From Amycolatopsis sp. NBC_01480 (GTDB lineage Bacteria; Actinomycetota; Actinomycetes; Mycobacteriales; Pseudonocardiaceae), in NCBI RefSeq assembly GCF_036227205.1, contig NZ_CP109442.1, forward strand, positions 7,936,001-8,000,000: DNA of 64,000 nt, given 5' to 3'. The notes under the pieces are model-generated. The model had not been told where the DNA came from. It ran no database searches and worked only from the letters and a program-made list of their open reading frames with translations. This document shows, piece by piece, positions 107 through 11,854 of the stretch. The position numbers were made by a program, and so were the translations under genes. Numbering within the stretch: position 1 is the first letter of the stretch; each line of letters starts with the position of its first letter.

Positions 107-1099
107 TCAGCTGACCACGACGGTGTACCGGGACTGGGGGAGCAGCTCGCCGATCACCGGGTACCCCGGCACTTCGCCCGCGACGAGCAGGCCACCCGAG
201 GTCTGGGCGTCGGCCAGGAGCAGGGCCTCGTCTTCGGTGACGCGGGTGAGGTCGGTGTGCGGGCGGACCCAGTCGAGGTTGCGGCGGGTCCCGCCGCTCA
301 CATGGCCGGCGGCCAGCGCCTCGCGGGCGCCGTCGAGGTAGGGCACGGCCGCGGGGTCCACCCGGGCGGTGACTCCGCTGGCGCGGGCGAGTTTGTGGAG
401 GTGCCCCAGCAATCCGAAACCGGTCACGTCGGTGGCGCAGACGGCGCCGGCGGCCAAAGCGGCGCGTGAAGCGTCGGCGTTCAGGGTGGTCATGGTCTCG
501 ATGGCGTTCTCGAACCGTTCGCCGGTGGCTTTGTGCCGAGAGTTGAGCACGCCGATGCCGAGCGGCTTGGTCAGCGTCAGTGGCACGCCGGGACGGCCGG
601 TGTCGTTGCGCAGCAGACGATCCGGGTCGGCCACACCGGTGATGGCCAGGCCGTACTTCGGTTCGGGATCGTCGACGCTGTGGCCGCCGGCCAGGTGACA
701 GCCCGCCGCGGCGCACACGTCCAGGCCACCGCGCAGGACTTCAGCGGCGAGTTCGAACGGGAGGACGTCGCGGGGCCAGCCGAGGAGGTTGACCGCGACC
801 ACGGGGGTGCCGCCCATCGCGTAGACGTCGGAGAGGGCGTTCGCGGCGGCGATGCGGCCCCAGTCGTAGGCCTCGTCGACGACCGGGGTGAAGAAGTCGG
901 TCGTCGCGATGAGGGCAGTGCCGTTCGGGAGGCGCACCGCGGCCGCGTCGTCGCCGTGGTCGAGCCCGACGAGAAGCTCGCCCACCGGCTTCGACGGGGC
1001 GCGCCCGGTGAGGCCGCGGACCACTTCTTCCAGCTCTCCCGGCGGGATCTTGCAGGCGCAGCCGCCGCCGTGGGCGTACTGGGTCAGGCGGTGGGTCAT
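107..1099 (-). CDS. selD: Selenide, water dikinase (selenophosphate synthetase)
   Basis: Makes selenophosphate, the selenium donor for selenocysteyl-tRNA, from selenide and ATP. The 330-residue length fits the family. The N-terminus carries the signature HGGGCACK: Cys14 and Lys17 match the essential Cys17/Lys20 of the E. coli enzyme, so this is a Cys-type SelD, not a selenoprotein. An aspartate-rich nucleotide/metal segment (DHGDDAAA) follows, then the AIRS-like domains, including a GGHSVDDPEPKYG stretch. It is divergent from the tRNA-Sec gene, whose 5' end lies about 60 bp away, and completes the Sec set with selA and selB. Confidence 0.97.
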   Translation of the reverse strand: MTHRLTQYAHGGGCACKIPPGELEEVVRGLTGRAPSKPVGELLVGLDHGDDAAAVRLPNGTALIATTDFFTPVVDEAYDWGRIAAANALSDVYAMGGTPVVAVNLLGWPRDVLPFELAAEVLRGGLDVCAAAGCHLAGGHSVDDPEPKYGLAITGVADPDRLLRNDTGRPGVPLTLTKPLGIGVLNSRHKATGERFENAIETMTTLNADASRAALAAGAVCATDVTGFGLLGHLHKLARASGVTARVDPAAVPYLDGAREALAAGHVSGGTRRNLDWVRPHTDLTRVTEDEALLLADAQTSGGLLVAGEVPGYPVIGELLPQSRYTVVVS

Positions 1100-1161
1100 C
1101 CGCGCATTCTCCTCGTGGTGCGGGAACGCCGCGACCTTGGCAGGATGACGGGATGTCCCAG

Positions 1162-1256
1162 GGAGGCGTCTCCGGCCTGGTGGCCGGCGCGGTCTTCAAA
1201 ACCGTTGAGCGGCAGGTACTGCCGCTGGCGGGTTCGATTCCCGTCCGCCTCCGCCA
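1162..1256 (+). tRNA. selC: tRNA-Sec (anticodon TCA)
   Basis: A 95-nt tRNA gene with encoded CCA (1254-1256). The acceptor arms GGAGGCG (1162-1168) and CGCCTCC (1246-1252) pair. The anticodon loop CTTCAAA (1194-1200) presents TCA at 1196-1198, reading UGA, and sits on a CGGT/ACCG stem. The long variable arm is an 8-bp stem (AGCGGCAG/CTGCCGCT) with a GTA loop. The T arm has GGTTCGATTCC. Length, long extra arm and TCA anticodon are diagnostic of bacterial tRNA-Sec. It lies just upstream of selA; the selA ATG is 13 bp beyond its 3' end. Confidence 0.97.
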
Positions 1257-1268
1257 CCGGGCCCGGCC

Positions 1269-2558
1269 GTGACCGACCCGCGCCGCGCGATCCCGCGCAC
1301 CGACGCGCTCCTGACCGACCCGCGGGTGGCGAAGGCCGCGGAAACACTGGGCCGGGAGCTGGTCAAGCGCGTGGTTTCCGAAGCCCAGCGAAGGGCCCGT
1401 GCCGGTGAAATCGCGCCGGCACAGGTTCTCGACGAGGTGGTGGCGAAGCTGCCGGGCCGGGCCTCGTCGCTACGGCCGGTGGTGAACGCGACCGGCGTGG
1501 TCGTCCACACGAACCTCGGCCGGGCCCCGCTGTCGCAGGCCGCGCTGGACGCCGTGGTGGCCGCAGGCGGCAGCACGGACGTCGAGTTCGACCTCACCGA
1601 TGGAAGCCGCGCGCGCCGGGGCCGGGGCGCACTCGAAGCGCTCGCCGCCGCCGTGCCCGCGGCCGGCGGAGTGCACGTGGTCAACAACAACGCCGCCGCG
1701 CTGCTGCTGTGCGCGCTCGCCTTGGCCCCGGGGCGGGAGATCGTGGTCAGCCGCGGGGAGCTGGTGGAGATCGGCGACGGGTTCCGCATCCCGGAGCTGC
1801 TCGCCTCGGCCGGCGCCCGGTTGCGGGAGGTCGGTACCACCAATCGCACCCGGCTCGCCGACTACGCGGCGGCGATCGGGCCGGAAACCGGGTTCGTGCT
1901 CAAGGTGCACCCCTCCAACTACCGGGTCACCGGGTTCACGGCCGAGGCGTCGGTCGCGGAGCTGGCGAGGCTGGACGTGCCGCTGGTCGTCGACATCGGC
2001 TCCGGCCTGCTCTCCCCGCATCCGCTGCTGCCGGACGAACCGGATGCGGCGACGGTGCTGCGCGATGGCGCGGACCTGGTCACCGCCAGCGGCGACAAGC
2101 TCCTCGGCGGCCCCCAAGCCGGGCTGCTGCTCGGGAAAGCGGAGCTGGTGGACCGGCTCAGGCGGCATCCGTCAGCCCGCGCGATGCGCGTGGACAAGCT
2201 GACTTGGGCGGCGCTGGAAGCCACCGTGCGCGGGCCGCTCCCGCCGGTCCGCACGGCGCTGGAGGCCGATGCGGCGACGTTGCGACAGCGGGCCGAGGCG
2301 ATCTGCGAGGCGTTGCGGCGAGCCGGTGTCGAAGCCGAACCCGTCGACTCGGTCGCCGCGGTCGGCGGCGGGGGAGCGCCCGGTGTCGAGCTTGCCGGCG
2401 CCGCGGTGAGCCTGCCCGCGCGGTACGCGGCGGCGCTGCGGCTGGGCGAGCCCGCGGTCGTGGGCCGGGTCGTGCGGGACCGGTGCCTGCTCGACCTGCG
2501 TACCGTCGCCCCCGGGCAGGACCCGCTGCTGACCGACGCCGTGCGCCGATGCGGGTGA
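1269..2558 (+). CDS. selA: L-seryl-tRNA(Sec) selenium transferase
   Basis: PLP enzyme converting seryl-tRNA-Sec to selenocysteyl-tRNA-Sec with selenophosphate. It has 429 residues, slightly shorter than the E. coli protein. The N-terminal helical segment that contacts tRNA is followed by VVNATGVVVHTNLGRAPL, a hallmark of the family. The PLP lysine lies in SGDKLLGGPQAG, at Lys277. The start follows the tRNA-Sec gene directly, so both may share a transcript. The 3' end overlaps the selB start by 10 bp in another frame, suggesting translational coupling. Confidence 0.97.
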   Translation: MTDPRRAIPRTDALLTDPRVAKAAETLGRELVKRVVSEAQRRARAGEIAPAQVLDEVVAKLPGRASSLRPVVNATGVVVHTNLGRAPLSQAALDAVVAAGGSTDVEFDLTDGSRARRGRGALEALAAAVPAAGGVHVVNNNAAALLLCALALAPGREIVVSRGELVEIGDGFRIPELLASAGARLREVGTTNRTRLADYAAAIGPETGFVLKVHPSNYRVTGFTAEASVAELARLDVPLVVDIGSGLLSPHPLLPDEPDAATVLRDGADLVTASGDKLLGGPQAGLLLGKAELVDRLRRHPSARAMRVDKLTWAALEATVRGPLPPVRTALEADAATLRQRAEAICEALRRAGVEAEPVDSVAAVGGGGAPGVELAGAAVSLPARYAAALRLGEPAVVGRVVRDRCLLDLRTVAPGQDPLLTDAVRRCG

Positions 2559-4267
2559 TCGCGACCGCGGGGCACGTCGATCACGGCAAGTCGACGCTCG
2601 TGCGCCGGCTGACCGGGATGGAACCCGACCGCTGGGCGGAAGAGCGGCGCCGCGGCCTGACCATCGATCTCGGGTTCGCGTGGACGGAGCTCGGCGGCGA
2701 GGAGGTCGCGTTCGTCGACGTGCCGGGGCACGAGCGGTTCGTGCCCACCATGCTCGCGGGCACGGGGCCGGTGCCCGCGGTGGCGTTCGTGGTGGCGGCC
2801 GACGAGGGCTGGATGCCCCAGTCGGCCGAGCACCTGGCCGCGCTCGACGCGTTCGGGGTGGCGCACGCGCTGCTCGTCGTCACCAAGGCTGACCGCGCCG
2901 ATCCGGCGCCCGCGACCCGTGCGGCGCTCGCGGAGTTCGCCGGGACCTCGCTCGGCACGGTGCCCGCCGTCGCGGTGAGCGGCACGACCGGTGCCGGCCT
3001 CGACGAGCTGCGCGCGGCCCTGACGCGCCTGGCGACGGCGCTCCCGGTGCCCGATCCGGACGGCGACGTGCGGCTGTGGCTCGATCGCGCGTTCACCATC
3101 CGGGGAGCGGGCACAGTCGTGACGGGGACCCTCGGGGCGGGCACGATCGCGGTCGGCGACGAGCTGGTCCTCGGCGGGACCACGGTGGGTGTCCGCGGGC
3201 TGCACGCCCTCGGCACGGCCCGCGAACGGGTCAGCGGCGTCGCCCGGGTGGCGGTGAACCTGCGCGGCGTACCGCGTGAAGCCGCGGCTCGGGGTACGGC
3301 ACTGCTCACGCCGGACGCGTGGCGCGCGACGGAGGTGGCCGACGTCCGGCTGCGCGGCGCGGAAGAACTGCACCGCGAAGCCGTGCTGCACCTCGGCACG
3401 GCGGCGGTCGCGGTCCGCGTCCGTCCATTGGGGACGGACACCGCGCGCCTCACCCTGCGCCGGCCGTTGCCGCTGCGGGCCGGCGATCGCGGGCTGCTGC
3501 GGGACCCGGGTGAGCACCGGATCGCGGCGGGCGTCACGGTGCTCGACGCCGACCCGCCCGGGCTCACCCGCCGGGGGGCCGCGCGGGCCCGCGCGGCGGA
3601 GCTGGCCGCGCCCGACCAAGCCGAAGCCCGCCTGCGGCGCCAAGGGTTCGCGCGGGAACAGGAATTCCGGGCGCTCGGTCTCCGGCCCACCGGGGAGCGG
3701 GTCGGGGGCTGGCTCGCCGATCCGGCCCGGCTCGCGGCGATCCGCGCGGAAGCGCCGGAGGTGGTGGCCGCGTGGGGCCGGGAGCACCCGGTCGCGGCGG
3801 GGATGCCCACCGAGGAGCTGCGGCGGCGTCTCGGGCTGCCCGCCGCGGAGCTGTTGCCCGCCGTTCTCGGTGACCTGGCGGTGGCCGGAGGCGTGGTACG
3901 GCGGCGCGACGCGGGGCTCACAGCTCCGGTCGAAGCCGCGCTCGCCGCGCTGGACAAGCACTTCTCGGAACATCCGTTCCGCGCGCCGGAGGCTGACGAA
4001 CTGCGCGCACTCGGGCTGGGCAGACGAGAACTGGCCGCGGCCGTGCGGCTGGGCAGGCTCACCGCCGTCGCCGAAGGGGTCGTGCTGGGTCCGGGCGCCG
4101 AGGCCCGCGCCGCCGCGGCGCTGGCCGGGGTCGAGCAGCCCTTCACCGTCTCGTCGGCACGGAGGGCGCTGGACAGCACCCGCCGCGTGATGGTCCCGCT
4201 GCTCGAACGGCTCGACGCGGCCGGGCATACCGAGCCGCTGGGCGACGGGCGCCGTCGCGCCGTTTGA
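2549..4267 (+). CDS. selB: Selenocysteine-specific elongation factor
   Basis: GTPase that delivers Sec-tRNA to UGA codons followed by a SECIS hairpin. It has 572 residues. The ATG at 2549, overlapping the selA stop, starts MRVIATAGHVDHGKST, which places the P-loop (GHVDHGKS) at residues 8-15; the longer open frame upstream lies inside selA and is not coding. Further G motifs are DVPGHE and TKAD. EF-Tu-like beta-barrel domains follow, then a C-terminal set of winged-helix segments of the SECIS-binding type, including HFSEHPFRAPEADELRALGL. It lies 37 bp before the selenoprotein gene that needs it. Confidence 0.96.
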   Translation: MRVIATAGHVDHGKSTLVRRLTGMEPDRWAEERRRGLTIDLGFAWTELGGEEVAFVDVPGHERFVPTMLAGTGPVPAVAFVVAADEGWMPQSAEHLAALDAFGVAHALLVVTKADRADPAPATRAALAEFAGTSLGTVPAVAVSGTTGAGLDELRAALTRLATALPVPDPDGDVRLWLDRAFTIRGAGTVVTGTLGAGTIAVGDELVLGGTTVGVRGLHALGTARERVSGVARVAVNLRGVPREAAARGTALLTPDAWRATEVADVRLRGAEELHREAVLHLGTAAVAVRVRPLGTDTARLTLRRPLPLRAGDRGLLRDPGEHRIAAGVTVLDADPPGLTRRGAARARAAELAAPDQAEARLRRQGFAREQEFRALGLRPTGERVGGWLADPARLAAIRAEAPEVVAAWGREHPVAAGMPTEELRRRLGLPAAELLPAVLGDLAVAGGVVRRRDAGLTAPVEAALAALDKHFSEHPFRAPEADELRALGLGRRELAAAVRLGRLTAVAEGVVLGPGAEARAAAALAGVEQPFTVSSARRALDSTRRVMVPLLERLDAAGHTEPLGDGRRRAV

Positions 4268-4304
4268 ACTGCGCACCACGGGGTACCGGACTAGCGTGCG
4301 AGAC

Positions 4305-7300
4305 ATGAGTTTCCGGCGGTGGATCGAAGGCTGGCCGGTGTACCGGCAGCTGACCGGTCCCGACCGGACCGCCCGCGGGGCCGCCGCCAAGTCGGACGGC
4401 TCGCGGGAGTGGCACGCCCGCACCGAGGACGCCGATCGGGTCGTGAAGTCCGTCTGTCCCTATTGCGCCGTCGGCTGCGGCCAGAAGGTGTACGTGAAGG
4501 GCGGCCGCGTCACGCAGATCGAGGGCGATCCGGATTCGCCGATCTCCCGCGGCCGGCTCTGCCCGAAGGGCTCGGCCAGCAAACAGCTCGTGACCAGCCC
4601 GAGCCGGGTGACCGAAGTCCTCTACCGCCGCCCGTACGGCACCGAATGGGAGCGGCTGCCGCTCGATCGGGCGATGGAGATGATCGCCGACCGCGTCCTG
4701 AAGACCCGCGCCGAGACGTGGCAGGACACGGACGGGAACGGGGTCCCGCTGAACCGCACCCTGGGCTTCGCCAGCCTGGGCGGCGCGACGCTGGACAACG
4801 AAGAGAACTACCTGATGAAGAAGCTCTACACCGCGCTCGGCGCGATCCAGATCGAGAACCAGGCCCGTATTTGACACTCCGCCACGGTTCCCGGTCTGGG
4901 GACCTCCTTCGGTCGTGGGGGCGCCACGACGTTCCAGCAGGACCTCGCCAACGCCGACTGCATCGTGATCCAGGGCTCGAACATGGCCGAAGCCCATCCG
5001 GTCGGGTTCCAGTGGGTGATGGAGGCCAAGGCCCGCGGCGCGAAGATCATCCACGTCGACCCGCGGTTCACCCGCACCAGCGCGGTCGCGCACACGCACG
5101 CGGCCCTGCGCGCGGGCTCGGACATCGCGTTCCTGGGCGGGCTGATCCACTACGTCCTCGACCGTGGGCTGGACTTCCGCGACTACGTGCTGGCCTACAC
5201 CAACGCCGCGGCGATCCTGCGCGAGGACTTCCGGGACACCGAGGACCTCGACGGCCTGTTCTCCGGCTACGACCCGGAGCGCAAGCAGTACGACGTGTCC
5301 ACCTGGGCGTACGAGGGCGTCGGCACCCTGCCCGCGGCGGGCAGCGGTGAGGCCGAGCTGCCGGGCGAACAGCACCATGGCGGCGAAGGCCACCAGTCGT
5401 CGGCACGCGCCGAGTCCTACGGCAGCGGCGGCGCCGCGATCGGCGGGAAGCCGCGAGAGGACAAGACCCTGCAGCACCCCCGCTGCGTCTACCAGGTCCT
5501 CAAACGGCATTTCTCCCGCTACACGCCCGAGATGGTCGCCGACATCTGCGGTGTCCCGGAGAAGCAGTTCCTGGAGATCGCCGAGGCCGTGACCGCCAAC
5601 TCGGGCCGGGACCGCACCACCGCGTGGGTGTACTCGGTCGGCTGGACCCATCACACCGTGGGCGCGCAGTACATCCGCACCGCGTCGATCCTGCAGACGC
5701 TGCTGGGCAACATCGGCCGCCCGGGCGGCGGGATCCTCGCGCTGCGCGGGCACGCCAGCATCCAGGGCTCCACGGACATCCCGACGCTTTTCAACCTGCT
5801 GCCGGGCTACCTGCCGATGCCGCACGCGCACCAGCACTTCGGGCTGGACGAGTACGTGGCCACCGACGCCGGGGCCACCGGCTTCTGGGGCAACATGCGG
5901 TCGTACACGGTGAGCCTGCTCAAGGCCTACTGGGGCGACGCTGCCCAGCCGCACAACGACTTCCGCTTCGGGCACCTGCCGCGCCTGACCGGCGACCACG
6001 GCACCTACGCCACGGTCAAGGCGCAGCTCGACGGCGAGTGCAAGGGCTACTTCCTGGTGGGGGAGAACCCGGCCGTCGGCTCGGCGAACGGCAAGATGCA
6101 GCGGCTCGGGCTGGCCAACCTGGACTGGCTCGTGGTGCGCGACCTGCAGCTGATCGAATCCGCCACGTTCTGGGAGAACGGCCCCGAGATCGAGTCCGGG
6201 GAACTGGCGAGCACCGAGATCGGCACCGAGGTGTTCTTCCTGCCGGCCGCCGCGCACACCGAGAAGGACGGCAGCTTCACCAACACCCAGCGGTTGCTGC
6301 AGTGGCACCACAAGGCCGTCGAGCCGCCCGGCGAGGCCCGCAGCGACCTGTGGTTCTACTACCACCTCGGCCGGATGATCCGGGAACGGCTGGTGGACAG
6401 CACGGAGCCCCGCGATCTGCCCGTGCAGGAGCTGACCTGGAGCTACCCGACCGAAGGCCCGACGGCGGATCCGTCGGCGGAGTCGGTGCTCGCCGAGATC
6501 AACGGCCACGGTCCCGACGGCCCGCTCTCGGCCTACACGCAGCTGAAGGACGACGGCTCCACCTCCTGCGGCTGCTGGATCTACTGCGGTGTCCGCGCCG
6601 ACGGGCACAACCACGCCGCGGACCGGAAGCCGGGTTCCGAGCAGGACTGGGTGGCGGCCGGCTGGGCGTGGGCGTGGCCCGCGAACCGGCGCATCCTCTA
6701 CAACCGCGCGTCCGCGGACCCCGACGGGAAACCGTGGAGCGAACGCAAGAAATACGTCTACTGGGACGAGGAGTCCGGCCGCTGGACCGGGCCCGACGTG
6801 CCCGACTTCGAGCCGGCCAAGCGCCCGGACTACGTGCCGCCCGAGGGGGCGAAGGCGCAGGACGCGCTCGGCGGCGCGGACCCGTTCATCATGCAGACCG
6901 ACGGCCGGGCCTGGCTCTACGTCCCGGCCGGGCTGGCCGACGGGCCCCTGCCCACGCACTACGAGCCGTTCGAGTCCCCTGTGGACAATGGCCTCTACGG
7001 TCAGCACGACAATCCGGCCCGGCAGACCCTGCGGACGCCGAGCAATCCGTACAACCCGGCCCGGAGCGCGGTGTACCCGTACGTGTTCACCACCTACCGG
7101 CTCACCGAGCACCACACCGCGGGCGGGATGAGCCGCACGCTGCCGTACCTGTCGGAGCTGCAGCCCGAGTTCTTCTGCGAGGTCTCGCCCGAGCTGGCGG
7201 CCGAGCGCGGGCTGGAGAACCTCGGCTGGGCCACGATCGTCTCGGCGCGCACCGCGATCGAGGCCCGGGTCCTGGTGACGTCGCGGATGAAGCCGCTGAA

Positions 7301-7526
7301 GGTGCGCGGCCGCACCATCCACCAGGTCGGGCTGCCGTATCACTGGGGCTCCAACGGGCTCTCGCGCGGCGACCCGGCCAACGACCTGCTCTCGGTCGTG
7401 ATGGACCCGAACGTGCACATCCAGGAAGCGAAGGCGGCGACCTGCGACATCGTCGCGGGCCGCCGGCCCCGCGGCCGTGGCCGGCTGGACCTGGTCGAGG
7501 ACTACCGGAGGAGAGCGGATGGCTGA
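4305..7526 (+). CDS. fdhA: Formate dehydrogenase catalytic subunit, selenoprotein (Sec at in-frame TGA)
   Basis: Molybdenum/tungsten-bis-MGD formate dehydrogenase of about 1073 residues, read through TGA 4872-4874 as selenocysteine (residue 190 from the ATG at 4305). The frame before the TGA ends IENQARI and the frame after it continues HSATVPGLGTSFGRGG; the two are in phase and match the family's U-H-S active-site block. The N-terminus binds a 4Fe-4S cluster through CPYCAVGCG and LCPKG. There is no convincing Tat or Sec signal, so a cytoplasmic location is inferred. A Gly/Glu/His-rich linker lies near 5330-5460. GTG 4296 is an alternative start. An ordinary gene caller would split this gene at the TGA. 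The 3' end overlaps fdhB by 8 bp. Confidence 0.96.
4886..4904 (+). promoter_or_regulatory. Bacterial SECIS element of fdhA
   Basis: Hairpin inside the coding sequence: 5' arm GGTTCCC (4886-4892), apical loop GGTCT (4893-4897), 3' arm GGGGACC (4898-4904), seven pairs with one T-G wobble. The loop sequence GGUCU and its distance from the UGA (first loop G is base 22 counting U of UGA as 1) match the E. coli fdhF SECIS as I recall it. The TT at 4888-4889 falls where fdhF has its bulged U. Confidence 0.92.
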
Positions 7527-8361
7527 GTACGGCGCACAGCCCCGGATGGGGTTCTTCACCGACACCTCCGTGTGCATCGGGTGCAAGGCGTGCGAGGTCG
7601 CCTGCAAGGAGTGGAACGAGGTGCCCGGGCGGGACCTCGACCTGCTCGGGATGTCCTACGACAACACCGGTGACCTCGGCGCGAACGCGTGGCGGCACGT
7701 CGCGTTCATCGAGCAGCCCGTCGCGGCGCCGCCGGTGCCGGCGGTCGAGCTGGGGATGCCCACGGTGGGCGCGCCCGCGCAGAACGGCGATTCCGGCGTC
7801 CGCTGGCTGATGTCGAGCGACGTGTGCAAGCACTGCACGGACGCCGCCTGCCTCGACGTGTGCCCGACCGGGTCGCTGTTCCGTACCGAGTTCGGGACCG
7901 TGGTGGTGCAGGAGGACATCTGCAACGGCTGCGGCTACTGCGTGCCCGCGTGCCCCTATGGCGTGATCGAGAAGCGTGAGAGCGACGGGCGCGCCTTCAA
8001 GTGCACGCTCTGCTACGACCGGCTCGGCGCGGGCCTCGAGCCCGCGTGCGCGAAGGCGTGCCCCACCGACTCCATCCAGTTCGGCGAGCTGGACGAGCTG
8101 CGCGAGCGCGCCGCCGCCCGCGTCGAAGACCTGCACGGCACCGGAGTGCCCGAGGCGCGGATGTACGGACACGACCCGGACGACGGGGTGGGTGGCGACG
8201 GCGCGTTCTTCCTGCTGCTGGACGAGCCCGAGGTGTACGGCCTGCCGCCCGATCCGGTGGTGACGACCCGGGACCTGCCGCAGATGTGGAAGCGGGCGGC
8301 GGCCGCCGCCCTCGGCGTCGCGGGCGCGCTGGCCGTGTCGTTCCTGGGCGGGCGCCGATGA
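7519..8361 (+). CDS. fdhB: Formate dehydrogenase iron-sulfur (beta) subunit
   Basis: Electron-transfer subunit of 280 residues with four cysteine clusters of the DMSO-reductase/FDH beta family: CIGCKACEVAC, CKHCTDAACLDVCPTG, CNGCGYCVPACPYG and CTLCYDRL with CAKACP. These should hold four 4Fe-4S clusters between FdhA and the membrane subunit. A short hydrophobic segment near the C-terminus (AAAAALGVAGALAVSFLGG) can anchor it, as in FdnH-type subunits. The ATG at 7519 has a strong GGAGGAG site and overlaps the fdhA end; its stop overlaps the next start (ATGA). Confidence 0.95.
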   Translation: MAEYGAQPRMGFFTDTSVCIGCKACEVACKEWNEVPGRDLDLLGMSYDNTGDLGANAWRHVAFIEQPVAAPPVPAVELGMPTVGAPAQNGDSGVRWLMSSDVCKHCTDAACLDVCPTGSLFRTEFGTVVVQEDICNGCGYCVPACPYGVIEKRESDGRAFKCTLCYDRLGAGLEPACAKACPTDSIQFGELDELRERAAARVEDLHGTGVPEARMYGHDPDDGVGGDGAFFLLLDEPEVYGLPPDPVVTTRDLPQMWKRAAAAALGVAGALAVSFLGGRR

Positions 8362-9272
8362 GCCCCCGTGGAGACCGGCCGATGGTCGCGCCGGCCGAGT
8401 TCACCTCTTACTACGGCCGGCCGATTCTCAAGGAGCCGGCGTGGAAGCAGCCCGACGTGCCGCTGTACCTGTTCCTGGGCGGCATGGCCGGCTCTTCGGC
8501 GTCGATCTCGGTGCTGGCGGACCTGACCAGGCGCCCCGGGCTGGCGCGCGTCGGGCGGCTGGCGGCGGCCGGCGGCGCGGTGGCGAGTGTGGTGGCGCTG
8601 ATCCACGACCTGGGGCGGCCGACGCGGTTCCTGCACATGCTGCGGGTGCTGAAGCCGACCTCGCCGCTCTCGGTGGGCTCATGGATCCTCGCACCGTTCT
8701 CGGGCCTGGCGTCGGTGGCCGCGGGATCCGCCGAAACCGGGCTGCTGAAGCCGATCGGCACACTCGCCGGAATCGCGGCGGGCGTGGCCGGACCGGCGAT
8801 GTGCACCTACACCGCCGTGCTGCTGGCCGACACCGCCACGCCGTCGTGGCACGAGGGCCGGCGCCTGCTGCCGGTGCTGTTCGCGGGCAGCGCGGTGACC
8901 AGTGGCGCGGGGATCTCGCTGATCGCGGCGCCGAAAGCCGAGACCGGGCCGGTCGTGCGGGCCGCGCTGGCCGGCGCGGCGGCGGAACTCGTGGCCGCGC
9001 ACCAGCTGGAGCACAGCCTCGGCCTCGTGTCCGAGCCTTACCGCACCGGCCGCGCGGGCAAGCTCCTCAAGGCCGCCCGCGGGCTGACCGTCACGGCTGC
9101 CGGGCTGTCACTGGCCGCCCGGCGGAGCAAGGCCGCTGCCGTGGCGAGCGGGGCCGCGTACCTGGCGGCCGGGCTGTGCACCCGGTTCGGCGTGTACCAG
9201 GCCGGCGTGGAGTCGGCTCGCGACCCGAAGTACGTCGTGGTGCCGCAACGCGCCCGTCTCGACGGTCAGTGA
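8358..9272 (+). CDS. NrfD/PsrC-like membrane subunit of formate dehydrogenase
   Basis: Integral membrane protein of 304 residues with about eight hydrophobic segments and conserved NrfD-family features: YYGRPILKEPAWKQPDVPLY near the start, FLGGMAGSS, and HDLGRPTRFLHMLRV. In such complexes it carries quinone chemistry in place of a cytochrome b subunit, so formate oxidation would feed the respiratory chain (family knowledge). It starts at ATG 8358 inside the fdhB stop. Its end overlaps the stop of a truncated minus-strand acetate kinase. A degraded second copy of its 3' end lies at about 12.3-12.5 kb. Confidence 0.9.
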   Translation: MSPRGDRPMVAPAEFTSYYGRPILKEPAWKQPDVPLYLFLGGMAGSSASISVLADLTRRPGLARVGRLAAAGGAVASVVALIHDLGRPTRFLHMLRVLKPTSPLSVGSWILAPFSGLASVAAGSAETGLLKPIGTLAGIAAGVAGPAMCTYTAVLLADTATPSWHEGRRLLPVLFAGSAVTSGAGISLIAAPKAETGPVVRAALAGAAAELVAAHQLEHSLGLVSEPYRTGRAGKLLKAARGLTVTAAGLSLAARRSKAAAVASGAAYLAAGLCTRFGVYQAGVESARDPKYVVVPQRARLDGQ

Positions 9273-9929: not shown

Positions 9930-10781
9930 CTAGCCTGGCAGGGTCTCGCCGCCGAGCGGTGCGATGATCTCGCCGCTGTAGTACGAAGAAAGCCGGTTGG
10001 CGGCGAGGAACACATAGGACGGTGCCAGGTCGTCGGGATGCGCGGCTCGTTCGAAGGGCGCTTGCGAGCCGAACTTCTCCACCTTCTCCGGTGGGAAGGT
10101 CGAGGGGATCAGCGGTGTCCACACCGGACCCGGCGCCACGCAGTTGATCCGCACCCCGCGGCCGGCCAGTGCCTGTGCCATGGCGTACGTCCAGGCGTGG
10201 ATGGCGCCCTTGGTCGCCGAGTAGTCGATCAGGGTCTTGTTGCCGCGCAAGCCGTTCACCGAACCGGTGTTCACGATCGCGGCGCCCTCGCCGAGGTGGG
10301 GGAGCGCGGCCTGGGTCACCCGGAAGTAGCTGTGCATGTTCACGTCGAAGGTGTGGAGCCACTGCTCTTCACTGAGATCCTCGGGCCGATCGACCGGCCA
10401 CTGGGTCGCCGCGTTGTTCACCAGCAGGTCCAGCCCGCCGAGGTACCGCACCGCGTCGGCGACGACCTCCGCGCAGTGCCGCGGCTTGCCGAGATCACCC
10501 GGCAGCAGCACGCATTTCCCGCCCGCGGCCGTCACCTTTTCCCGGGTGTGCTCGGCGTCCTCGTGCTCGTCGAGGTACGCGATGGCGACGTTCGCGCCCT
10601 CCTTGGCGAAGGCGATCGCGGTCGCGCGCCCGATTCCGGAATCACCGCCGGTGATCAGCGCACGTTTCCCCTCGAGCAACCCGCGGCCCTCGTAGTCCTC
10701 CATGGTGTCCCGCGGCCGGGGGTCCATCCGCGCGGTCGTCCCGGGCGGCTCCTGCTGCTGCGGTGGTTGCTGCTGTGTCAC
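9930..10781 (-). CDS. General-stress type short-chain dehydrogenase/reductase
   Basis: NAD(P)-dependent SDR of 283 residues resembling the YghA/YhdF stress family: Pro/Gln-rich leader (about 45 residues), cofactor motif TGGDSGIGRA, NNAA, and catalytic YSATK with an upstream Ser. The physiological substrate is unknown. Transcribed toward the acetate kinase remnant and 77 bp downstream of ku; this pairing of a stress SDR with a repair gene suggests stationary-phase or stress expression, which is inference. Confidence 0.88.
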   Translation of the reverse strand: MTQQQPPQQQEPPGTTARMDPRPRDTMEDYEGRGLLEGKRALITGGDSGIGRATAIAFAKEGANVAIAYLDEHEDAEHTREKVTAAGGKCVLLPGDLGKPRHCAEVVADAVRYLGGLDLLVNNAATQWPVDRPEDLSEEQWLHTFDVNMHSYFRVTQAALPHLGEGAAIVNTGSVNGLRGNKTLIDYSATKGAIHAWTYAMAQALAGRGVRINCVAPGPVWTPLIPSTFPPEKVEKFGSQAPFERAAHPDDLAPSYVFLAANRLSSYYSGEIIAPLGGETLPG

Positions 10782-10858: not shown

Positions 10859-11782
10859 TCAGGAGGCCTTCAACGCTGCCTCCAGGTCGTCGCGCGTCAT
10901 CTTCGAGCGGCCCTTGAGGTCACGGTCCTTGGCCAGCTTCTGCAGCTGGGCCTTGGACAGCCCGGCGAGGTCCGGTGTCCCGCGCTTCGTGGACCGGCCT
11001 CGCCGCCCGTCCCGGTCGCGCAAGCTCTTGGACAAGGCTTCGAACAGGTCGACGACCTTCGTGTCCTCTTCCGGTTCCGCTGCCGGCGTCACCGTCCCAC
11101 CGGCCTTCTTGGCGTCGATGAGGTCGCGGACCCGTTCGTTGTAGGTGTCGTGGTACTCCTGCGGCCGCCACCGCTCGGTCATCGCGTCGATGAGCCGGAC
11201 AGCCATGTCGATCTCCTTCCCGCTCGTCTTGGCGTCCGCGGGGAGCAGGGGGACCTCCTTCGCCGGGTCACGCACGTCCGCCGCGAAATGCAGGGTATTG
11301 AGCACCAGGACGCCCTTCCCGGACCGGACGAGCGCGAGGTGTTCACGGCCGTGCAGGGCGAATTTCGCGACCGCGGCCTTGTCCCGCTGGCCGAGGGCTT
11401 TGACGAGCAGCACGTACGGCCGCTCGGCGTCCTCTTTGGCCGGTGCGAGCCAATACGTGCGGTCGAAGTAGATCGGGTCGACTTCCGCCAGGTCGACGAA
11501 GCGTTCGACTTCGAGCGAACGCGACCGGCCGGGCGCCGCCTCGTCGAGTTCCTGCTGCTCGATCAGGACGTACTCGCCGTCTTCGAGCTCGTAGCCTTTG
11601 ACGATCTCCTGGTAGGGCACCTCGTCGCCAGTCCGCTCATTGACCCGGCGGTACCGGATGCGGTCCTGCGTGCCCTGCTGGAACTGGGTGAAGTGCACGG
11701 TGTGGTCGTCAACGGCCTTGTACAACCGCACTGGCACGCTGACCAGGCCGAAGGCCAGAGATCCCTGCCAGACCGGACGCAT
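10859..11782 (-). CDS. ku: Non-homologous end joining protein Ku
   Basis: Bacterial Ku of 307 residues, a homodimeric ring that binds DNA ends and recruits LigD. The N-terminus MRPVWQGSLAFGLVSVPVRLY is the classical start, so I prefer the ATG at 11782 (preceded by GAAGGGAG) over a start 17 codons upstream. The core beta-barrel segment is followed by a basic tail and a SAP-like motif (GLSKAQLQKLAKDRDLKGRSKMTRDDL), typical of actinobacterial Ku. No ligD is in the window. The upstream gene on the same strand is the DUF5709-like protein. Confidence 0.95.
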   Translation of the reverse strand: MRPVWQGSLAFGLVSVPVRLYKAVDDHTVHFTQFQQGTQDRIRYRRVNERTGDEVPYQEIVKGYELEDGEYVLIEQQELDEAAPGRSRSLEVERFVDLAEVDPIYFDRTYWLAPAKEDAERPYVLLVKALGQRDKAAVAKFALHGREHLALVRSGKGVLVLNTLHFAADVRDPAKEVPLLPADAKTSGKEIDMAVRLIDAMTERWRPQEYHDTYNERVRDLIDAKKAGGTVTPAAEPEEDTKVVDLFEALSKSLRDRDGRRGRSTKRGTPDLAGLSKAQLQKLAKDRDLKGRSKMTRDDLEAALKAS

Positions 11783-11854
11783 CCCGCTACTCCCTTCGCT
11801 GACCGGTGAGTACCCGGTGCCGGGTGCCGTCACACGGCGTTCGGGCCGGTCCCG

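Follow-up and report, generated by a model that had tools for sequence, protein, structure and literature searches.

The window, a 64,000-nucleotide stretch of the genome of Amycolatopsis sp. NBC_01480, carries formate dehydrogenase genes beside genes for making and inserting selenocysteine (Sec). The genes selA, selB and selD and a tRNA-Sec, which a preliminary description had placed alongside the dehydrogenase, were all found at positions 107–4267. The selD gene (selenide water dikinase; 107–1099, minus strand; 330 aa) matches TIGR00476 at 391.6 bits (cut-off 125), and its translation has the motif GGGCACKIPP close to the N terminus, with cysteines present and an in-frame stop absent. The tRNA-Sec, with anticodon UCA, lies on the plus strand at 1162–1252 (1162–1256 according to ARAGORN) and, at 82.4 bits against a cut-off of 47, is the only above-cut-off match to the Rfam model RF01852 in the 10.1 Mb genome. 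The selA gene (selenocysteine synthase; 1269–2558, plus strand; putative start GTG 1269) scores 429 bits with TIGR00474 (cut-off 267.9). The selB gene (selenocysteine-specific elongation factor; 2549–4267, plus strand; probable start ATG 2549) scores 256 bits with TIGR00475 (cut-off 242.25), a score taken on the longer ORF 1709–4267, and its product has the C-terminal winged-helix domains SelB-wing_2 and SelB-wing_3 (Pfam).

The gene for the formate dehydrogenase alpha subunit, fdhA, follows at 4305–7526 on the plus strand and is identified by NF041513, Pfam and PDB alignments. Downstream on the same strand lie fdhB (iron–sulfur subunit; 7519–8361; 280 aa) and fdhC (NrfD-type membrane subunit; 8358–9272; 304 aa). 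Translation of fdhB gives 16 cysteines in four 4Fe4S motifs, and hydropathy indicates one hydrophobic segment, at the C terminus; the TIGR01582 score of 182 bits, taken on the longer ORF 7477–8361, is below the cut-off of 334.7. The fdhC product matches the NrfD families PF14589 (54.1 bits) and PF03916 (45.1 bits) and no other family at E ≤ 0.001. The tRNA-Sec, selA, selB, fdhA, fdhB and the NrfD-type gene share one strand, from which selD diverges. Three overlaps occur (10 nt between selA and selB, 8 nt between fdhA and fdhB, 4 nt between fdhB and fdhC), and a gap of 37 nt separates selB from fdhA; the genes from tRNA-Sec to fdhC are likely expressed as one transcript. A single fdhD is found elsewhere in the genome.

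Beyond fdhC, on the minus strand, the stretch 9266–10015 matches only the C-terminal half of acetate kinase (profile positions 186–392 of 392), and a short-chain dehydrogenase gene (9930–10781, minus strand) occupies the place of the N-terminal half. This piece is likely a truncated remnant. One of the other loci (L007) has two pieces matching acetate kinase in different frames. A gene for a Ku-type DNA end-joining protein (PF02735, 165 bits) lies near the cluster at 10859–11833 on the minus strand.

From ATG 4305 to the terminal TGA at 7524–7526, fdhA is a single frame whose only internal stop is the TGA at 4872–4874, codon 190. Read through, it gives 1073 residues including a predicted selenocysteine at position 190. 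Frame length itself is weak evidence for the gene, because the DNA is GC-rich and an antisense ORF of 1154 aa (4143–7607, minus strand) spans the same stretch; ORF length was discarded as evidence on that account. Open frames are thus cheap here, and the case for fdhA rests on homology. The read-through protein scores 1953.2 bits with the NCBIfam model NF041513 (formate_DH_Act; cut-off 1400), and residues 6–1070 align in one stretch with profile positions 2–1067 of 1067. It also scores 935.7 bits with TIGR01553, the alpha subunit of formate dehydrogenase-N (cut-off 814.2). The frame is therefore continuous across TGA 4872, as the preliminary description had proposed, with the stop standing within the U-H-S block of formate dehydrogenases: in the motif QARI*HS (asterisk, in-frame stop) it takes the Sec or Cys position of homologues and is followed by the conserved His.

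Mechanical ORF calling splits the gene into 4296–4874 and 4965–7526. The 4Fe4S domain PF04879 (Molybdop_Fe4S4) falls in the first of these pieces, and PF00384 (Molybdopterin) and PF01568 (Molydop_binding) in the second. The halves nevertheless belong to one family, since NF041513 covers both, and a placement in separate families, which would have told against the initial reading, was not found. The expectation that standard annotation would report two partial genes holds for mechanical ORF calling; as a general statement it is true only in part, because NCBIfam now has the dedicated model NF041513.

Alignment with Sec-containing formate dehydrogenases of known structure, the check that had been suggested, places the X (selenocysteine) of both 1kqf and 1h0h opposite the TGA. 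In each case a single stretch crosses the codon (FdhA residues 45–337 with 1kqf and 39–337 with 1h0h). R481 of FdhA matches R446 of 1kqf, which we take to be an arginine with a catalytic role. Homologues with Cys likewise align across the TGA (QARVCHSSTV against QARI*HSATV), so the other outcome named as telling against the initial reading, a failure of Cys enzymes to align there, was not observed either. By the hydropathy criterion, the first 60 residues contain no hydrophobic stretch for Tat export, the maximum 19-residue hydropathy being 0.24. The other five FdhA matches in the same genome have no internal stop, which leaves one Sec-type match. In the same set of analyses, comparison of P0005 with the PDB gave no related sequence at E ≤ 1.

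Immediately downstream of the TGA, on the plus strand, the sequence can form the hairpin GGUUCCC-GGUCU-GGGGACC at 4886–4904, which we examined as a candidate SECIS element. It has seven pairs and a 5-nt loop, lies wholly in coding sequence, and corresponds to nucleotides 15–33 counted from the T of the TGA; the stem begins 11 nt and the loop 18 nt from the codon. Bacterial SECIS elements are described (PMC13188914) as having a loop of 3–9 nt with G in its first two positions, an upper stem of 4–16 bp, a spacing of 16–37 nt and an energy of at most −7.5 kcal/mol. The hairpin agrees with this in its 5-nt loop, 7 bp, GG and 18 nt, and in a folding energy of −17.6 kcal/mol for 48 nt, a value that shuffled sequences equal. 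Because its stability is that of shuffled sequence (z = 0.13), fold stability was discarded as evidence and covariation was used instead. The Rfam model SECIS_3 (RF01989) matches 4869–4930, in the right place, with E = 1.8e-4; at 27.6 bits the match is below the gathering score of 63, and the hairpin was therefore not filed as a SECIS_3 member.

Covariation was analyzed in 76 distinct 51-mers from 122 stop-codon loci. With a covariation score of 0.228, the hairpin exceeds the shuffled mean of 0.105 and every one of 500 shuffles; slid registers give at most 0.085. Pair 18–30 is CG, UA, UG, GU or GC in 75 of the 76 sequences. Four of the seven pairs are invariant, hence uninformative, and two of five covariation measures (changes on both sides and further pair types) do no better than shuffles (298/500 and 296/500), so that the signal rests mainly on pair 18–30. 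The outermost pair is broken in 28 of the 76 sequences, and all seven pairs are formed in only 35 of 58 distinct stop-codon 36-mers. In the loop, G23 and U24 do not vary among these 58; in this numbering they coincide with the SelB-contact bases of Escherichia coli fdhF. A genome search with a model built on these hairpins, which is formate dehydrogenase-like and leaves room for other kinds of selenoprotein, returned the fdhA element at E = 1.7e-12 and no further SECIS element at E < 1, the next match having E = 3.0. Neither this genome nor the control genomes have a match to the UGSC family.

The seven Cys genes differ from the stop-codon genes in this stretch: all seven pairs are formed in none of them, pair 18–30 is unpaired in all, and U24 is absent from all. 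Since these genes form one clade, the loss of the hairpin with the loss of Sec counts as one event and not seven. In 122/122 stop-codon loci the codon in the loop is either GGT, which makes up 8.9% of Gly codons downstream in the same genes, or AGT, which makes up 2.6% of the Ser codons there. At the protein level the hairpin reads V-P-G/S-L-G (VPGLG or VPSLG) in all 122 stop-codon loci. The corresponding residues of the Cys genes (L116–L122) are VVGLG, VAGLG, VAALG, VSGLG or VIGLG, that is, V-[A,V,S,I]-[G,A]-L-G in 7/7. At 4886–4904 it is as if the RNA dictated the protein, in a comparison with a single Cys clade.

A match to FdhA at E = 1e-100 or better was found in 206 of 298 genomes drawn from the order. 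The active-site motif is present in 129 of 135 loci (118 distinct proteins), with TGA at the Sec position in 74, TAG in 48, TGC in six and TGT in one; no sense codon other than those for Cys occurs there in the 129. The six loci that lack a motif match are the five matches to distant paralogues in the Amycolatopsis genome itself (L002–L006) and L123, which was filtered for an extra stop. L123 (genome G248) has the TGA in its usual place, here codon 187 of the matching stretch, and an in-frame TAG eight codons before it; this gene is a decayed copy or an assembly error. The seven Cys genes are single open frames and were picked for having no internal stop among the matches listed, so their number is not a count of Cys genes for the order.

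Among named relatives, taken as the best 80 of 591 confirmed stretches and thus leaning to close relatives, codon 190 is always a stop (52 TGA and 28 TAG). In this set the nearest relatives of fdhA are from Amycolatopsis species, and the TAG loci are from Geodermatophilaceae except one, from an unclassified Frankiales MAG. The 80 loci span up to 6 kb on each side, and some are cut by contig ends. Within these limits, SelA is found in 34, SelB in 31 and SelD in 33 of the 52 TGA loci, and none of the three is found within the 28 TAG loci. FdhB accompanies the gene in 40/52 TGA and 28/28 TAG loci, and the NrfD-type subunit in 39/52 and 27/28, respectively.

Co-occurrence with tRNA-Sec was evaluated in 36 genomes picked by hand from those searched in the order. 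On its own, the Rfam cut-off of 47 bits lacks specificity, being exceeded in 5 of 14 control genomes, so a threshold of 64 bits was chosen after the scores were seen. All 20 chosen genomes for which TGA or TAG was the listed codon reach this threshold with a tRNA-Sec match, and none of the 14 chosen controls does (the seven Cys genomes and seven same-genus genomes with no formate dehydrogenase match at E = 1e-100). In two further genomes (G118 and G282) the gene is present with its codon unlisted, and both have a match of at least 64 bits. The Cys genomes reach at most 53.4 bits with RF01852, and four of them have no match at E = 1e-7; ARAGORN assigns the matches in G049 (53.4 bits) and G159 (49.1 bits) to tRNA-Ser and that in G219 (46.8 bits) to tRNA-Cys. 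Several stop-codon genomes also have second matches, of 46.8–51 bits, and the one examined (G217) is a tRNA-Ser. Inside the loci, ARAGORN reports a tRNA-Sec in 29 of 115, in every case with a TGA gene and anticodon UCA. The three TAG genomes examined (G217, G288 and G257) each have a strong RF01852 match with anticodon CUA, labeled Pyl by ARAGORN. Sec insertion had been called the only sensible reading of the TGA; the hairpin, the match of codon and anticodon in relatives, and the co-occurrence with tRNA-Sec give that reading independent support at the level of sequence.

A tree was made from the 118 distinct proteins of the 129 loci after removal of the Sec residue and the 12 positions that follow it. 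It groups the seven Cys genes in a single clade and 36 of 37 TAG rows in another. The remaining TAG row, L090 (from the Geodermatophilaceae-like genome G257; ORF 1459–4944, minus strand), stands apart with four TGA rows on a starred branch. A tree holding all TAG rows together is marginally rejected (p-AU = 0.0445). By region, the same constraint gives p = 0.027 for residues 201 onward and p = 0.71 for residues 1–200, where the constrained tree scores better. In comparisons of 100-residue segments, the best TAG relative is slightly closer to L090 in those starting at 50 and 100 and the best TGA relative is closer in the other 18, with twice as many TGA rows available, which favors TGA. Because this grouping was defined with the tree already in view, L090 is a lead and not a result; it suggests a second switch from UGA to UAG, or perhaps recombination around the codon. 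We tentatively propose, at somewhat less than even odds, that the choice of Sec codon follows the tRNA resident in the genome: a dehydrogenase of TGA ancestry, in a genome (G257) with TAG and a CUA tRNA-Sec, may have made the second UGA-to-UAG switch, by mutation or recombination, after lateral transfer. For the Amycolatopsis locus, the corresponding proposal is that the whole Sec machinery may serve a single codon, sharing an operon with the one gene that needs it. On the same tree the formate dehydrogenase of Rhodococcus rhodnii (L012) falls inside the Kibdelosporangium group and was likely acquired by lateral transfer. Its gene has a tRNA-Sec and selA upstream, and neither SelB nor SelD is matched at E = 1e-10 within the 15-kb locus.

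Three other explanations of TGA 4872 were considered and all rejected. A lone stop in an otherwise intact frame resembles the result of a recent nonsense mutation or of a sequencing error, and the TGA might then be a true stop, in a pseudogene arising by point mutation or in a misread gene with a Cys codon. The codon, however, is a stop in every one of the best 80 of 591 relatives, the downstream hairpin covaries, TAG takes its place in three examined genomes that have a CUA tRNA, and the Sec machinery is complete. Conservation largely refutes a true stop, which we consider highly improbable. It is also conceivable that two separate polypeptides are made, the first ending at 4874 and the second restarting, for example, at GTG 4965, and that they then assemble; mechanical ORF calling yields exactly these pieces. 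Such an enzyme would be without the catalytic residue and without residues 191–220, which are lost by a restart at 4965 yet align with the solved homologues, and each of the seven Cys homologues has one uninterrupted frame. An assembly of two chains thus has very little probability.

Bacteria show low-level read-through of UGA, and a standard tRNA, such as tRNA-Trp, could in principle suppress the codon and insert another residue. This position is nevertheless Sec in the solved homologues and Cys in seven relatives, with no other sense codon among the 129 loci, and both tRNA-Sec and SelB are encoded alongside fdhA; we regard suppression by a standard tRNA as a very slight chance.

We conclude, with a probability of about 0.97, that the product of 4305–7526 is the catalytic subunit of a molybdopterin-dependent formate dehydrogenase associated with the membrane, and that its active-site residue 190 is a predicted selenocysteine. 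Sec is almost certainly inserted at codon 190, as judged from the computed gene, codon, covarying hairpin, machinery and neighbors kept in many relatives. In the proposed mechanism, SelD would supply selenophosphate and SelA would convert Ser-tRNA-Sec to Sec-tRNA-Sec. SelB would bring the latter to the ribosome and bind the hairpin at 4886–4904, and UGA 4872 would thereby be decoded as Sec and not as a stop. FdhA would oxidize formate to CO2 with a molybdenum (or tungsten) pterin cofactor, and electrons would pass through the four iron–sulfur clusters of FdhB to the NrfD-type membrane subunit and from there presumably to menaquinone. Because FdhA has no recognizable export signal or hydrophobic N-terminal segment, its active site probably faces the cytoplasm.

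The protein is homologous along most of its chain to the alpha subunit of E. coli FDH-N (FdnG, 1kqf) and has Sec at the same place. In contrast to the E. coli protein, FdhA is without a hydrophobic N-terminal segment, and about 40 of its residues (338–380), between two aligned stretches, have almost no counterpart in 1kqf. The third subunit of FDH-N is a cytochrome b, whereas the third subunit encoded here is NrfD-type and does not qualify as a cytochrome b gamma subunit of the FdnGHI kind. From the actinobacterial family NF041513, which FdhA matches over its full length, no difference was found.

Within the actinobacteria, systems of this kind are in print. For Amycolatopsis mediterranei, a tRNA-Sec is described together with a formate dehydrogenase whose Sec is encoded by UGA, and the presence of selA, selB and selD is implied (PMC4048454); the likeness to FdhA is by description, and the nearest named relatives of FdhA, among the best 80 of 591, are from the same genus. 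Streptomyces incarnatus has a Sec formate dehydrogenase gene with a SECIS and clustered selABCD (PMC4498112). Addition of selenite to Actinomycetospora chiangmaiensis made formate formation almost negligible, an effect that the authors credit to FDH1 and FDH3 jointly; FDH1 subunits were seen by proteomics at low abundance, and two Sec alpha subunits, which lacked a protein accession, were put in by the authors (PMC7176365). By description, FDH1 is likewise a membrane-bound Sec enzyme, whose cluster entry also lists FdhB, FdhC, SelA and SelB. Its subunits have 1078, 362 and 366 residues, compared with 1073, 280 and 304 here, and that genome has three Sec formate dehydrogenases (PMC7176365), compared with one Sec-type match here. 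Three other Actinomycetospora species match fdhA at 70–71% (L037, L064 and L074). The formate dehydrogenases of Geodermatophilaceae belong to the same protein family and have the same hairpin, but use UAG with a tRNA anticodon CUA (PMC5330540), in contrast to UGA and UCA here.

A Sec-UGA formate dehydrogenase beside its machinery is thus a correct reading that is already known in kind, since it has been reported in the close relative A. mediterranei and in S. incarnatus, and the nearest named relatives (best 80 of 591) are from Amycolatopsis. For this organism, the annotation call is confirmed: a gene cut in two by naive ORF calling is one selenoenzyme. For the family, the UGA-Sec, UAG-Sec and Cys versions of one enzyme form, with the Cys side resting on a single clade, a natural contrast for studying the constraint that a SECIS places on protein.
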